From Pseudomonadota bacterium (GTDB taxonomy: Bacteria; Bdellovibrionota; Bdellovibrionia; Bdellovibrionales; JACTMU01): DNA of 64,000 nt. The DNA is taken from the NCBI GenBank assembly GCA_014584465.1, contig JACTMU010000112.1:1-64000 (forward strand), read 5' to 3'. Shown piece after piece: positions 2,586 through 61,050 of the stretch. Both the position numbers and the translations under genes were made by a program. The first letter of the stretch is position 1. The number at the start of each line of letters is the position of its first letter. The notes below the pieces were generated by a model that made no database searches, was not told the DNA's origin, and saw only the letters and a list, made by a program, of their open reading frames with translations.

Positions 2586-3305
2586 ATGTCGATGTTGAAG
2601 TCCTCTTTAAGAGCCATCTTTTTGACTCTAGCCCTTTTTGCTTCCTGCTCTGGCCTTGGCTCAGAGCCCTATGATCCCTTTGCAGACTACTCCGATTTTG
2701 ATGAGGATACTTCTCAAGAACAGGGCTCCAGCGCCCCCGTGGGTGGCCGAAGGCTGAGCGTGGGTATTGTCAACGGAGTTCGAAACTACACGGACAGCTT
2801 AGAGAAGAGTTTCAAGTCGAGCTCAGTTCTTGGAGCCTCCATGACCCTCTTTTTTAGCTTGGGGGGTCTTCATTTGGCTCTTGAGGGCACCTATTTGATC
2901 GGAGAGTCCATATGGATCTTAAGATCGAGCACCGATGAGGAGGGGGGAGTTGCTTCAATTCAAGATGCGGGCGTGAATCTTAGGTACTATTTCATTACGG
3001 ACAATGTCTCAGTTGGAATATCCGATTTTGCCCCCTATGTGGTCTTAGGATATTCCCAAATCAGTCGTGAAATTAGGGGGTTATCGAGGCCAACAGGGCG
3101 TGACTCAAGTTCCGCCGGCAATGGTGGCTTCGGGCTTGAGATTCCCCTTATTGGGGGGCGCGCCTTTTTGGGTTTTCAGGGGGTCTACCAATTTGTGAAT
3201 TTTCCTAATGAAGACCAACCCGTAGCCGTAGGTCAAGGAGAGGGCCTGGCCCGACTGGACGGGAACACCTATCTGCTCACCCTCTCATTTGGTGCAAACT
3301 TTTGA
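2586..3305 (+). CDS. predicted outer-membrane beta-barrel protein, unknown role
   Basis: The product has about 239 residues and starts with a signal peptide (MSMLKSS then a hydrophobic run ending LFASCSG). The cysteine could be a lipobox residue, although LFASC is not a strong match. After an acidic linker (DPFADYSDFDEDTSQEQ) the rest alternates hydrophobic and polar residues with glycine turns and ends in LTLSFGANF, which resembles a barrel with a terminal aromatic. ATG 2586 and ATG 2592 are both possible; neither has a strong SD. The family is not recognised. It is divergent from the mevalonate operon. Confidence 0.65.
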   Translation: MSMLKSSLRAIFLTLALFASCSGLGSEPYDPFADYSDFDEDTSQEQGSSAPVGGRRLSVGIVNGVRNYTDSLEKSFKSSSVLGASMTLFFSLGGLHLALEGTYLIGESIWILRSSTDEEGGVASIQDAGVNLRYYFITDNVSVGISDFAPYVVLGYSQISREIRGLSRPTGRDSSSAGNGGFGLEIPLIGGRAFLGFQGVYQFVNFPNEDQPVAVGQGEGLARLDGNTYLLTLSFGANF

Positions 3306-3326
3306 TTCAGAGCCCAGGTTTTGAGG

Positions 3327-3355
3327 TTGCCAAGATTCGTTGCAGTGCCTATATT
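3327..3355 (+). promoter_or_regulatory. sigma-70-type promoter, probably for tRNA-Gly
   Basis: TTGCCA (3327-3332), a 17-base spacer and TATATT (3350-3355) give a near-consensus promoter. Transcription would begin near 3362, about 12 bases before a foldback element. Removing the element and one copy of its target repeat puts the start about 14 bases upstream of the tRNA, a typical tRNA arrangement. Inferred from sequence only. Confidence 0.55.
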
Positions 3356-3374
3356 TCGACAAATGCAGTACTTA

Positions 3375-3536
3375 GTGGCTGGTGCGAAACCTGCTTTCGA
3401 GTGAATTTGCATAAGTTTTTCTTATACCGAGACGGGCCGACGAAGGGCTAGCCAGAGGCGCTAACTCGAGGAGGCTCAACGAAGGTATAAGGAAAACTTA
3501 TGCAAATTCACCGAAATGAGGTTTCGCGCCAGCCAC
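3375..3536 (+). mobile_element. foldback element, arm type B (copy 1)
   Basis: The 162-bp element has inverted ends GTGGCTGGTGCGAAACC / GGTTTCGCGCCAGCCAC, followed inward by complementary arms (CATAAGTTTTTCTTATACC against GGTATAAGGAAAACTTATG). The apex carries the shared core, which begins CGACGAAGG, contains GGCTAGCC and CTCGAG, and ends GGAGGCTC. The hexamer TACTTA is repeated exactly at both ends (3369-3374 and 3537-3542), as expected for a target-site duplication. It carries no coding sequence. The right target repeat ends one base before tRNA-Gly. Confidence 0.85.
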
Positions 3537-3543
3537 TACTTAT

Positions 3544-3616
3544 GCGGCAGTAGCTCAGTTGGTAGAGCACTAGCTTCCCAAGCTGGGGGTCGCGAGTTCG
3601 AGTCTCGTCTGCCGCT
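3544..3616 (+). tRNA. tRNA-Gly (anticodon CCC)
   Basis: A 73-base cloverleaf. The acceptor stem is GCGGCAG/CTGCCGC with discriminator T; the D arm is GCTC..GAGC; the anticodon stem is CTAGC/GCTGG with loop TTCCCAA, giving anticodon CCC (reads GGG); the T arm is GCGAG-TTCGAGT-CTCGT. CCA is not encoded. The gene lies directly behind a foldback element and its TACTTA target repeat, 33 bases before the norC-like gene. Confidence 0.95.
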
Positions 3617-3647
3617 TTCTCTTTTAGGAGGTTAAATCCAACCATCG

Positions 3648-4088
3648 ATGAAGCAATGCCCGCCGACTCTTCGCAAATTGATGATGGTTGTGCTGTTGGG
3701 ATGTTTTTCCCTACAGACTTGGTTGATCTATTCAGATGAGACAGGTTACGAACACCCACCTCTTTCACATTCGGCCTCGCGAGGGCGCACACTCTGGGCA
3801 AAAAATAACTGTCAAAGTTGTCACCAGCTCTATGGGTTTGGTGGATTTCTCGGACCTGATCTCACCAATCGTGCCTCTTATCTGCCACAAGAGGCCTTTG
3901 AGGCCATTGTGAAATTTGGTCCCCGTCAAATGCCATCCTTCTCTTTTTCTCAAGAGCAATTCAATGATCTCTACGCTTTTTTGAAGGAGATGGATCAAAC
4001 AGGGCGTGGGCAACCTCGTGTCTCCTATTACAATCCGCCCGGGGATCGCAGTTTTCGGTTTGAATACTTGCCGTGGTTCACCTACTGA
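3648..4088 (+). CDS. NorC-like membrane-anchored cytochrome c
   Basis: The 146-residue protein has one N-terminal membrane helix (about residues 11-28) and one heme-c site, CQSCH, in the context LWAKNNCQSCHQLYGFGG. This closely resembles NorC, the cytochrome subunit of cytochrome-c-dependent NO reductase (VWENNNCIGCHSLLG). A methionine in QMPSF, the expected heme ligand, lies near residue 100. It would pass electrons to the NorB-like protein encoded next. The SD AGGAGG is about 16 bases upstream of the ATG, unusually far, but no other in-frame start exists between them. Confidence 0.82.
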   Translation: MKQCPPTLRKLMMVVLLGCFSLQTWLIYSDETGYEHPPLSHSASRGRTLWAKNNCQSCHQLYGFGGFLGPDLTNRASYLPQEAFEAIVKFGPRQMPSFSFSQEQFNDLYAFLKEMDQTGRGQPRVSYYNPPGDRSFRFEYLPWFTY

Positions 4089-17179: not shown

Positions 17180-17311
17180 TATTTGAGTCTCCTTTTTTGT
17201 AGAGCTTACTTTAGCTGCTCAAGGAGAAAAAGGCTCATGATAAATACCCTCGTGAAGTATTTATACAGTTCTGGTAGCCAGTGATTGTCAATTGTGTGTA
17301 GAATCTACATA

Positions 17312-17468
17312 GTGGCTGGCGCGAAACCTCATTTCGGTGAATTTGTCATAAGTTTTCCTTATACCTTTGTTGAGCCTCCTCGAGTTAGCGCCTCTGGCTA
17401 GCCCTTCGTCGGCTCGCCTCGGTATAAGAAAAACAAATTCACTCGAAAGCAGGTTTCGCGCCAGCCAC
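17312..17468 (-). mobile_element. foldback element, arm type B (copy 2)
   Basis: A 157-bp element with ends GTGGCTGGCGCGAAACC / GGTTTCGCGCCAGCCAC and an exact TACATA repeat outside each end (17306-17311, 17469-17474). The arms and apical core match copy 1, here with the core in reverse orientation. A few bases around CTTATG are missing from the right arm, so the foldback is slightly asymmetric. It fills most of the 330-base gap before the methyltransferase gene, starting 132 bases after the secreted-protein ATG. Confidence 0.85.
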
Positions 17469-17509
17469 TACATAGTACCTGGCGAACACGAGGAAGAAAG
17501 GGGAGGGTT

Positions 17510-21029: not shown

Positions 21030-21165
21030 GGGGCTGTCCGGTAATTCCATTTTTGCCGATTTCTATAAGTTTTCCTTATACCTTCGTTGAGCCTCCTCGA
21101 GTTAGCGCCTTTGGCTAGCCCTTCGTTATCAAAATCGATCAAAAAGCGAATTACCGGACAGCCCC
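21030..21165 (-). mobile_element. foldback element, arm type A (copy 3, internal deletion)
   Basis: A 136-bp element with ends GGGGCTGTCCGGTAATT / AATTACCGGACAGCCCC and TAGTTA repeated outside both (21024-21029, 21166-21171). The arm next to the core's CGACGAAGG side has lost about 26 bases, leaving CTTCGTTATC, so only the outer arms pair fully. It lies 25 bases upstream of the activator gene start and must sit in its leader or promoter. Confidence 0.85.
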
Positions 21166-31759: not shown

Positions 31760-31995
31760 TAGATAAATTCTCGCCCCTGATCTAAACTCATTTTTTGAGT
31801 CTGTATTTTTAATTGCGCTGAATAATGAGGAGCAAACTGATTAAATTCCTTAAGCAAAACTCCTCTCGCATACAAATAACAAGACATTCCTGTTTCATAC
31901 ATTAGATTTCGAATGCTGCCATGAAAGATCATTCGATCAAATCCAGATAAAGCACCTAAAATCTTATCGCCGCTATGAGTTCTTCTGTACAGAGA
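31759..31995 (-). pseudogene. fragment of a widespread unclassified bacterial protein family, N-terminal part
   Basis: The reverse strand carries about 78 open codons without a start, ending TAG at 31759-31761. The text includes GDKILGALSGFDRMIFHGSI, then RNLMYETGMSCYLYARGVLL and KEFNQFAPHYS. This resembles, from memory, the first 70 residues of a common uncharacterised protein of about 400 residues often found near mobile DNA (GFDR..FRGTLR..YL....VLLKDF). The rest is missing. It lies between a type B relic and a decayed element core. Confidence 0.45.
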
Positions 31996-32108
31996 GGTGG
32001 GGCCCCACGAAAGGCTAGCCCGAGACGTTCACTTGATGGGATCTAACGAAGGTATAGGCAAAAACTATAGAAATTCATCAAGATGAAGTTTCGCGGCACC
32101 AACTCCAC
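31992..32108 (+). mobile_element. decayed foldback element, arm type B
   Basis: The segment aligns with the apical core and right arm of copy 1: CACGAAAGGCTAGCC, CTAACGAAGGTATAGG, AAATTCATCAAGATGAAG and TTTCGCGGCACCAACTCC match with scattered substitutions. The left arm is missing. This is the most diverged copy in the window. Confidence 0.6.
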
Positions 32109-39727: not shown

Positions 39728-40095
39728 GTGCCAGGTTCCGTTTGCTGGTCACGGCACGTCAAAGTCGAATGGGTATCAGAGACCGCAGTCTCGGATTGCG
39801 GTCGGAAACCCACGGCATTGGCTGGAAGTGGCCAACTCTATTTTATCTTAGATAGGGGCTGTCCGGTAATTCGCTTTTTGATCGATTTTGATAAGTTTTT
39901 CTTATACCGAGGCGGGCCGACGAAGGGCTAGCCAGAGGCGCTAACTCGCCCCTAGATAAAGCGTTCCCCACGACGATCAATAGGGGACGTGATTGATCAC
40001 AAAGTGAGGATGGTTGCACGGGGCTTGTGGTTTGGGTTGCTTGGTAGTGCGTCGGTGATCATGTCTGGTTGCGTCCAGCATTTGGAACCTGGCAC
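39728..40095. repeat. 368-bp unit bounded by 21-bp inverted repeats between two stop codons
   Basis: The left end GTGCCAGGTTCCGTTTGCTGG (39728-39748; first 20 bases GTGCCAGGTTCCGTTTGCTG) is repeated in inverse form at 40075-40095 (CCAGCATTTGGAACCTGGCA and a final C), with three mismatches. The unit fills the gap from the stop of the M1-like gene (39725) to the stop of the convergent dehydrogenase gene (40096). Inside is a nested hairpin (39770-39812: TGGGT/ACCCA around GACCGCA/TGCGGTC) and a type A foldback element at 39855. No gene was found in it. Confidence 0.6.
39855..39952 (+). mobile_element. foldback element, arm type A (copy 4, right arm deleted)
   Basis: A 98-bp element starting GGGGCTGTCCGGTAATTCGC and running through the whole left arm and half the core (GGGCTAGCCAGAGGCGCTAA). 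It then ends abruptly as CTCGCCCC. TAGATA is repeated outside both ends (39849-39854, 39953-39958). Only CCCC of the right arm remains, so the deletion occurred after insertion. Confidence 0.8.
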
Positions 40096-51611: not shown

Positions 51612-51751
51612 GGGGCTGTCCGGTAATTCGCTTTTTGATCGATTTTGATAAATTTTTCTTATACCGAGGCGGGCCGACGAAGGGCTAGCCAGAGGCGCTA
51701 ACTCGAGGAGGCTCAACGAAGGTATAAGGAAAACTTATAGAAATCGGCAAA
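51612..51751 (+). mobile_element. foldback element, arm type A (copy 5, right end lost)
   Basis: It starts GGGGCTGTCCGGTAATTCGC after TAGGTA (51606-51611). Left arm, full core and most of the right arm are present (GGTATAAGGAAAACTTATAG, then AAATCGGCAAA). The final tip ending GGACAGCCCC and the second TAGGTA are missing. The break lies eight bases from the stop codon of the convergent response-regulator gene. Confidence 0.8.
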
Positions 51752-52418: not shown

Positions 52419-52591
52419 AAATACAATCCAATCGGAATATTCTACGACACAACTTGCTTGTTTTTTTTCACCAGATTGAACAAAGATCTCCTCGAATTAG
52501 CTTCTGGCTAGTCCTTCGTCGATCTTTGTTCAAACTGGTAAAAAAACCCTTCGCAATTTGCATCGTAGAATATTCCGACTGGATTGTATTT
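52419..52591 (-). mobile_element. foldback element, arm type C (copy 6)
   Basis: A 173-bp inverted repeat: left arm AAATACAATCCAATCGGAAT continuing ATTCTACGA, right arm TCGTAGAATATTCCGACTGG continuing ATTGTATTT. Arm sequence is unrelated to types A and B. The apex again carries the core in short form (rc: CGACGAAGGACTAGCCAGA, then AGCTAATTCGAGGAG), flanked by GAACAAAGATC and its complement. No clear target repeat. It lies 125 bases upstream of the response regulator and 103 bases before the FecR-like gene. Confidence 0.8.
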
Positions 52592-57283: not shown

Positions 57284-57533
57284 CTAGGGGCTGTCCGGTA
57301 ATTCCATTTTTGCCGATTTCTATAAGTTTTCCTTATACCTTCGTTGAGCCTCCTCGAGTTAGCGCCTCTGGCTAGCCCTTCGCCCGCCTCGGTATAAGAA
57401 AAACTTATAGAAATCGATCAAAAAGCGAATTACCGGACAGCCCCTAGCTAAAAGCTAATTTGAGGAGATCTTCGTTCAATCTGGTGAAAAAGAACAAGCA
57501 AGTTGTGTCGTAGAATTTTCGGAACGGACTATA
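57203..57533 (+). mobile_element. foldback element, arm type C (copy 7), carrying a nested element
   Basis: Left tip TATAGTCCGTTCCGAAAATT, right tip AATTTTCGGAACGGACTATA. The arms contain CTGCGACACA / TTGTGTCGTAG and GATTGAACAAAGATC / GATCTTCGTTCAATC. The core GACGAAGGACTAGCT..AGCTAATTTGAGGAG is split by a 158-bp type A element at 57287-57444. Without it the unit would be about 167 bp. It supplies the last 26 codons and the stop of the RND pump. Confidence 0.8.
57287..57444 (-). mobile_element. foldback element, arm type A (copy 8), nested
   Basis: The most complete type A copy: GGGGCTGTCCGGTAATTCCA to GCGAATTACCGGACAGCCCC, 158 bp, with arms pairing along nearly their whole length and the core in reverse orientation. 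TAGCTA is repeated at both sides (57281-57286, 57445-57450). Removing the element and one TAGCTA restores an ordinary type C core. Confidence 0.9.
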
Positions 57534-60945: not shown

Positions 60946-61050
60946 GGGGCTGTCCGGTAATTCGCTTTTTGATCGATTTCTATAAGTTTTTCTTATACCG
61001 AGGCGGGCCGACGAAGGGCTAGCCAGAGGCGCTAACTCGAGGACAGCCCC
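60946..61050 (+). mobile_element. foldback element, arm type A (copy 9, right arm deleted)
   Basis: A 105-bp element starting GGGGCTGTCCGGTAATTCGC, with a complete left arm and core to CTCGAG, then directly the tip GACAGCCCC. TATTTA is repeated at both sides (60940-60945, 61051-61056). The right arm was lost except for its last nine bases. It lies about 100 bases upstream of iorA. Confidence 0.85.

Follow-up and report, generated by a model that had tools for sequence, protein, structure and literature searches.

A MITE/REP-like mobile hairpin with a conserved folded tip in the leader of a tRNA-Gly(CCC) gene in the Bdellovibrionales

Two groups of prokaryotic elements resemble the sequence described here. 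The MITEs of prokaryotes (Correia elements, MITEAba12, QMITEs; PMC10969869) are short, noncoding, high-copy elements with long terminal inverted repeats, which duplicate their target, lie mostly between genes, and may sit just downstream from a promoter, as the Correia element at mtrCDE does. REP, REPIN, and BIME sequences with TnpA-REP (PMC8266576, PMC3116915, PMC2817692) are extragenic hairpins that occur in hundreds of copies and in tandem groups, some of them with conserved mismatches in the stem. Both sets of properties recur in a foldback element in the leader of a tRNA-Gly(CCC) gene, found in a stretch of 64,000 nucleotides (here called the window) from contig JACTMU010000112.1 of a Bdellovibrionales assembly. 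Also relevant to it are integron attC sites, which are recognized by structure as a folded single strand and in which the foot of the hairpin, rather than its tip, is conserved, and the Correia element, with its Neisserial 26-bp ends and its TA duplication.

The tRNA-Gly(CCC) locus and the inserted element

The features of the locus are as follows; R1 is a covariance model of the loop of the element and R2 the refined model.

3327..3355, forward strand: tRNA promoter, TTGCCA-17-TATATT; the sole sigma-70-type match in 3250-3700, 10/12
3369..3374, forward strand: target-site duplication, left copy, TACTTA; read directly
3375..3536, forward strand: foldback element, A subfamily, full length, 162 bp, GTGGCTGG...CCAGCCAC; inverted repeats, fold z = -12.7, family alignment
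3375..3428, forward strand: left arm of the hairpin; arms 89-96% complementary, terminal pairs co-vary between copies
3425..3485, forward strand: conserved tip at the apex, built of C-G pairs and tandem G.A mismatches in alternation under a short stem-loop cap; model R2, 67.1 bits; covariation over 25 diverse sequences
3484..3536, forward strand: right arm of the hairpin; arms 89-96% complementary
3537..3542, forward strand: target-site duplication, right copy, TACTTA; read directly
3544..3616, forward strand: tRNA-Gly(CCC), intact, without an encoded CCA; ARAGORN, Rfam RF00005, 68.5 bits

The initial annotation described a foldback element that separates the body of the tRNA gene from its promoter, and every coordinate it gave holds. 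The promoter comprises TTGCCA (3327-3332), a 17-nt spacer, and TATATT (3350-3355), a match for which shuffled sequences give an expectation of 0.2; 19 bases separate its -10 box from the element and 7 bases separate the element from the start of the tRNA. The element begins with GTGGCTGG (3375) and closes with CCAGCCAC (3536), and its foldback arms, which had also been proposed earlier, are borne out by the computed inverted repeats and by an RNA fold of 3362-3620 far below that of shuffled sequences (-138 kcal/mol versus -81 +/- 4.5). Within the tip of this copy the tandem G.A mismatches are partly replaced by pairs. Two features were missing from the initial annotation, namely, the perfect 6-bp direct repeat TACTTA on both sides of the element and its family context (at least 109 loop cores and about 28 full-length A copies). 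When the element and one repeat are removed, the -10 box ends 20 nt 5' of the tRNA, a spacing inside the span seen between candidate promoters and the genome's other tRNA genes.

We favor the reading, with a probability of about 0.7, that a nonautonomous MITE/REP-like mobile hairpin inserted in the tRNA leader, and that its folded tip is recognized while its arms only pair. The short tRNA-Gly(CCC) leader took up an element that is a single hairpin throughout, at the target TACTTA, whose six bases were duplicated, as the flanking repeats and the other family members show. The upstream promoter would still start transcription; a sequence scan found no promoter-like or terminator-like site inside the element, and the leader of about 180 nt with a long hairpin that had been proposed earlier is what the promoter position predicts. 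This leader, mostly hairpin, would stay removable by RNase P because its last 7 bases and the tRNA fold are unchanged, and double-strand-specific RNases may first trim the hairpin.

Leader processing and decoding of GGG

Duplication of the target has left bases -7 to -1 as they were prior to the insertion: with T3543, the right TACTTA repeat restores the original leader TACTTAT, with U at -1. In the predicted fold, acceptor pair probabilities exceed 0.96 with the hairpin leader present, and the main stem reaches to -8, or to -6 if the TA pairs are counted. In E. coli, RNase P cleavage drops about 10-fold with a stem-loop placed two nucleotides into the leader, and RnpA contacts leader bases beyond -3 (reviewed in PMC10731613). 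With the main stem ending where it does, a modest slowing of RNase P by the hairpin leader is plausible.

The supply of glycine tRNAs suggests how much such slowing might matter. Among 35 tRNA matches in the assembly, which is 99.67% complete, Gly(CCC), Gly(UCC), and Gly(GCC) are each found once; a second tRNA-Gly(CCC) gene without the element, named in the initial annotation as evidence that would speak against its proposal, was not found among them. The tRNA-Gly(UCC) gene at C6:44195 provides the other expected reader of GGG. Since tRNA-Gly(UCC) should read GGG by wobble, tRNA-Gly(CCC) is helpful but probably dispensable, and the effect of the insertion on GGG decoding would probably be small. 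GGG itself is not rare, making up 23% of the glycine codons in the open reading frames of the window. Among the loci examined in the best-matching relatives, Gly(CCC) occurs in only two genomes; a search of relatives for an orthologue of this tRNA gene free of the interruption gave none, the best matches being tRNA-Gly(UCC), and a search of GTDB genomes for relatives of the neighboring oxidase-like gene returned none.

A hairpin leader could also be a selected regulator that sets the level of tRNA-Gly(CCC) by slowing RNase P or by making processing dependent on RNase III or on protein. The position of the element between promoter and tRNA would suit this role, as would the single tRNA-Gly(CCC) gene found, the frequency of GGG, and the slowing of cleavage by leader stem-loops (PMC10731613), but the element is one of more than 100 mostly intergenic copies, at none of the other 29 loci checked first is there a tRNA next to the element, the genome also has tRNA-Gly(UCC), and the leader at the cleavage site is unchanged; we therefore regard selected regulation as improbable. 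Reduced GGG decoding through the insertion is possible, but nothing in the sequence gives a sign that the hairpin regulates tRNA supply, and the insertion is most likely near-neutral. As a mobile hairpin tolerated in a tRNA leader, the locus is a tidy, modest case, and it offers a natural experiment on the amount of leader that RNase P will accept.

The element family and its conserved tip

The 32-nt loop-core pattern occurs in at least 109 places in the genome; a DNA search with the element scored at least 40 places, and 154 pieces of two subfamilies could be aligned after their neighborhoods were fetched, a copy number that is affected by assembly faults in the B copies. The two subfamilies have their central part in common: A, to which the window copy at 3375-3536 belongs, ends in TAGTGnnTGG and GTGnnTGGCG, and B, whose copies are nearly identical, ends in TAGGGGCTGTCC and GGGGCTGTCCGG. 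Perfect 6-bp repeats flank 43 of the 73 copies with both ends readable (TAnnTA in 42 of the 43 and TACGGT in one), and several other copies have a 7-bp duplication. This perfect duplication, nearly always of TAnnTA, shows that the family is mobile. Its copies avoid genes, with 13 of 122 lying in long open frames, compared with 44% of the window's TAnnTA sites and 61% of points placed in it at random. The variable terminal pairs of A copies mostly match within a copy (CG, GC, UA, and others) and vary between copies. The window holds these further members:

17310..17470, reverse strand: second A-type copy, target-site duplication TATGTA; family alignment, R2 model match
21030..21165, reverse strand: B-type copy with an internal gap (assembly suspected), target-site duplication TAACTA; family alignment
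31990..32054, forward strand: degenerate member of the tip family; R1, 29.3 bits
39855..39948, forward strand: B-type copy, left part only (assembly suspected); family alignment
51612..51751, forward strand: B-type copy, right end missing; family alignment
52478..52533, reverse strand: diverged member with the same tip and unrelated long arms; R1, 39.5 bits, fold -117 kcal/mol
57287..57444, reverse strand: B-type copy with a short deletion, target-site duplication TAGCTA; family alignment
60946..61043, forward strand: B-type copy with an internal gap (assembly suspected), target-site duplication TATTTA; family alignment

A deletion hotspot after CTAACTC in the B copies was considered and rejected as an assembly artefact. 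Of the 63 partial B copies, 52 are missing the portion toward higher contig coordinates and 11 the portion toward lower ones (some of these 11 stand at the start of a contig), irrespective of the orientation of the element, and the kept length is most often exactly 93 nt. Loss thus follows the contig coordinate and not the orientation of the element, which points to the assembler and not to biology. The copies at 21030-21165, 39855-39948, and 60946-61043 are affected, and the same artefact ends several contigs (G000); the tRNA-leader copy is of type A and complete.

Several individual copies stand out. Three (L030, L073, and L071) are chimeras that combine an A end with a B end; at L030 the TAACTA duplication is perfect, as though unlike ends could be moved together. 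One A copy sits inside a fragment of an IS256-type transposase gene (L189:1689-1855; G000:C47:1888-2054), and an open reading frame judged by eye to resemble a group II intron reverse transcriptase lies near another (L188:3-617; G000:C43).

Comparison between genomes separates the tip from the arms. The tip, about 60 nt at the apex of the hairpin, is conserved, while the arms are unrelated between genomes yet self-complementary: tips are 69% identical and arms 49% (shuffled, 45%), and the arms are 77% self-complementary. The same loop is carried on quite different arms in G002, one relative from outside the family. An alignment of 25 diverse tip sequences (A4) has the consensus C[GA]AGGCG-CGACGACGAAGGnnTAGC...GCTAnnTCGAGGAGGAG-CAACGAAG, and the fold proposed for it has single C-G pairs and tandem G.A mismatches by turns (5'-CGACGAC opposite 5'-GGAGGAG) below an eight-pair stem cap. 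Paired cells amount to 92.5%, versus 72.2% in shuffled alignments; changes on both sides (compensatory changes) occur in 13 of 15 pairs, a result reached by 0 of 500 shuffles; and the covariation score is 0.538, versus 0.183 after shuffling and no more than 0.077 when partners are slid, figures that lean to the structure of the model insofar as the alignment rows were found by a model of the same loop, although the R1 structure was without several of the covarying pairs. Column pair 18/47, for example, is C-G in 20 sequences and G-C in 5, and pair 15/50 is C-G in 21 and G-C in 3. Judged by these sequence comparisons, the tip is under selection for its fold.

Within one genome, arm complementarity could stem from template-switch correction and not from selection. 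That template-switch (quasipalindrome) correction alone keeps the arms complementary, with the structure unselected, would agree with terminal pairs that match within most copies and vary between copies. It would leave unexplained both the non-complementary G.A positions conserved in the tip across the phylum and the compensated single C-G pairs between them, and we consider it very unlikely. The reading that we prefer is that the tip is conserved as a folded single-strand structure, whereas the arms would need only to pair.

The tip is widespread in the phylum. Of 141 genomes of the order, 21 contain a match to model R1; across the phylum, R2 detects the tip in 74 of 369 genomes and in 45 of 182 genera, with copies per genome ranging from one to more than 100. 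Tandem arrays of left arm plus tip, in units of 82 to 116 bp, occur at L292 and L293 (G034), L294 (G018), and L295 (G027), with the long right arm only after the last unit. Inverted tip pairs lie closely spaced, about 110 bp apart, in G086 (C3:204826-204997 and C4:24168-24337), at L251 (G105), and at L305 (G351). In other genomes, 17 of 39 tips have their 3' end no more than 32 nt from the end of an opposite-strand gene, and none lies so near the end of a same-strand gene; the loci are listed here.

Tip near the end of an opposite-strand gene: L261, L245, L248, L292-L297, L299, L301, L304, L278, L285, L289, L326

This placement, as if in 3' untranslated regions, bears on whether the tip is an RNA element whose transcribed copies are bound by a host RNA-binding protein, the mobile form merely spreading it. 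Its sequence-conserved G.A mismatches with covarying pairs would suit such a role, but a folded single-stranded DNA would give equal covariation, and in the present genome the orientation of tips relative to neighboring genes is close to even. In Rfam 15, only the tRNA reaches the gathering score in the window, the element itself gives a subthreshold hit to a repeat-like miRNA model besides weak matches at chance level, and 12 loci from other genomes give none at E <= 0.1. An RNA element bound by a host protein is unlikely, if less so than selected regulation of the tRNA. Searches of the literature with tip sequence terms returned nothing relevant, and the exact loop core was found in neither GTDB nor viral contigs; a viral contig with an 18-base match to the tip fails the tip model.

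Mobilization and comparison with known systems

The likeliest reason for conservation of the tip is that an enzyme acting in trans recognizes it, folded as single-stranded DNA or as RNA, and duplicates TAnnTA on insertion. No mobilizing enzyme was identified: no autonomous partner with these ends was found at PF01609 (IS4/IS5-type) or PF00872 (IS256-type) loci of this genome or on its short contigs. A Y1 (HUH) REP-associated transposase moving the hairpins, as in a REP/RAYT system, would account for folded-hairpin recognition, high copy number, and BIME-like tandem arrays, and Y1 transposase genes, present in 269 of the 369 genomes, occur in 66 of the 74 genomes with the tip versus 203 of the 295 others, a comparison that ignores kinship. 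At only 1 of 20 Y1 loci examined, however, does a tip lie near the Y1 gene (within about 1.3 kb), and we rejected the linkage on this ground; a Y1 match is absent from 8 genomes with the tip, including the complete genome G034 with at least 10 tips, and the GTAG foot is lacking. Y1 enzymes are not generally expected to leave target duplications of 6 bp, so the duplication also argues against a Y1 mechanism, and we hold a REP/RAYT system to be decidedly improbable. A Y1/REP-associated-type transposase gene of 236 amino acids, not flanked by the hairpin, lies at L314:892-1602 (G000:C107).

The trans-acting recognition that we favor can be extended, more tentatively and at somewhat less than even odds, to the proposal that the tip is a new structured motif, the recognition signal of an unknown phylum-wide mobilization or RNA-binding system with exchangeable arms. 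That the tRNA-leader copy is one product of a system recognizing the tip is a suggestion we hold equally tentatively. Absent from the RNA library searched, the tip occurs in about one in five of the phylum's genomes sampled, where its arms are unrelated, and this raises the question of which protein reads it, as DNA or as RNA.

Set against described systems, the family combines properties of several. An attC reading of the core was rejected, with no attC core motif visible by eye and no gene cassettes seen; the structure-based use of a folded single strand would be alike, but attC sites conserve the foot and this family the tip. The TAGTGG ends, which we take to resemble Correia ends, accompany a duplication of 6 bp and not of TA. 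Like REP and REPIN sequences, the element is an extragenic hairpin with conserved stem mismatches. Unlike them, it is much longer, has target duplications of 6 to 7 bp, and carries no GTAG-type foot (TAGTGnnTGG in A, TAGGGGCTGTCC in B), and no tip lies near the TnpA-REP (Y1) gene at 19 of the 20 loci examined. It resembles MITEs in being short and noncoding with inverted repeats to both ends, in its target-site duplication, and in its high copy number and dispersed, mostly extragenic distribution. Among the IS4/IS5- and IS256-type loci and short contigs no parent IS was found, and no internal promoter was found in the window copy. The terminal repeats of MITEs are normally conserved and shared with a parent IS, whereas here the center is conserved and the ends differ between subfamilies and genomes, a layout with a constant tip and free arms that inverts the usual pattern of conserved ends and a free middle. 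We read the family as mobile hairpins of a MITE/REP-like kind, notable for a tip whose fold is conserved and for arms that are free to vary.
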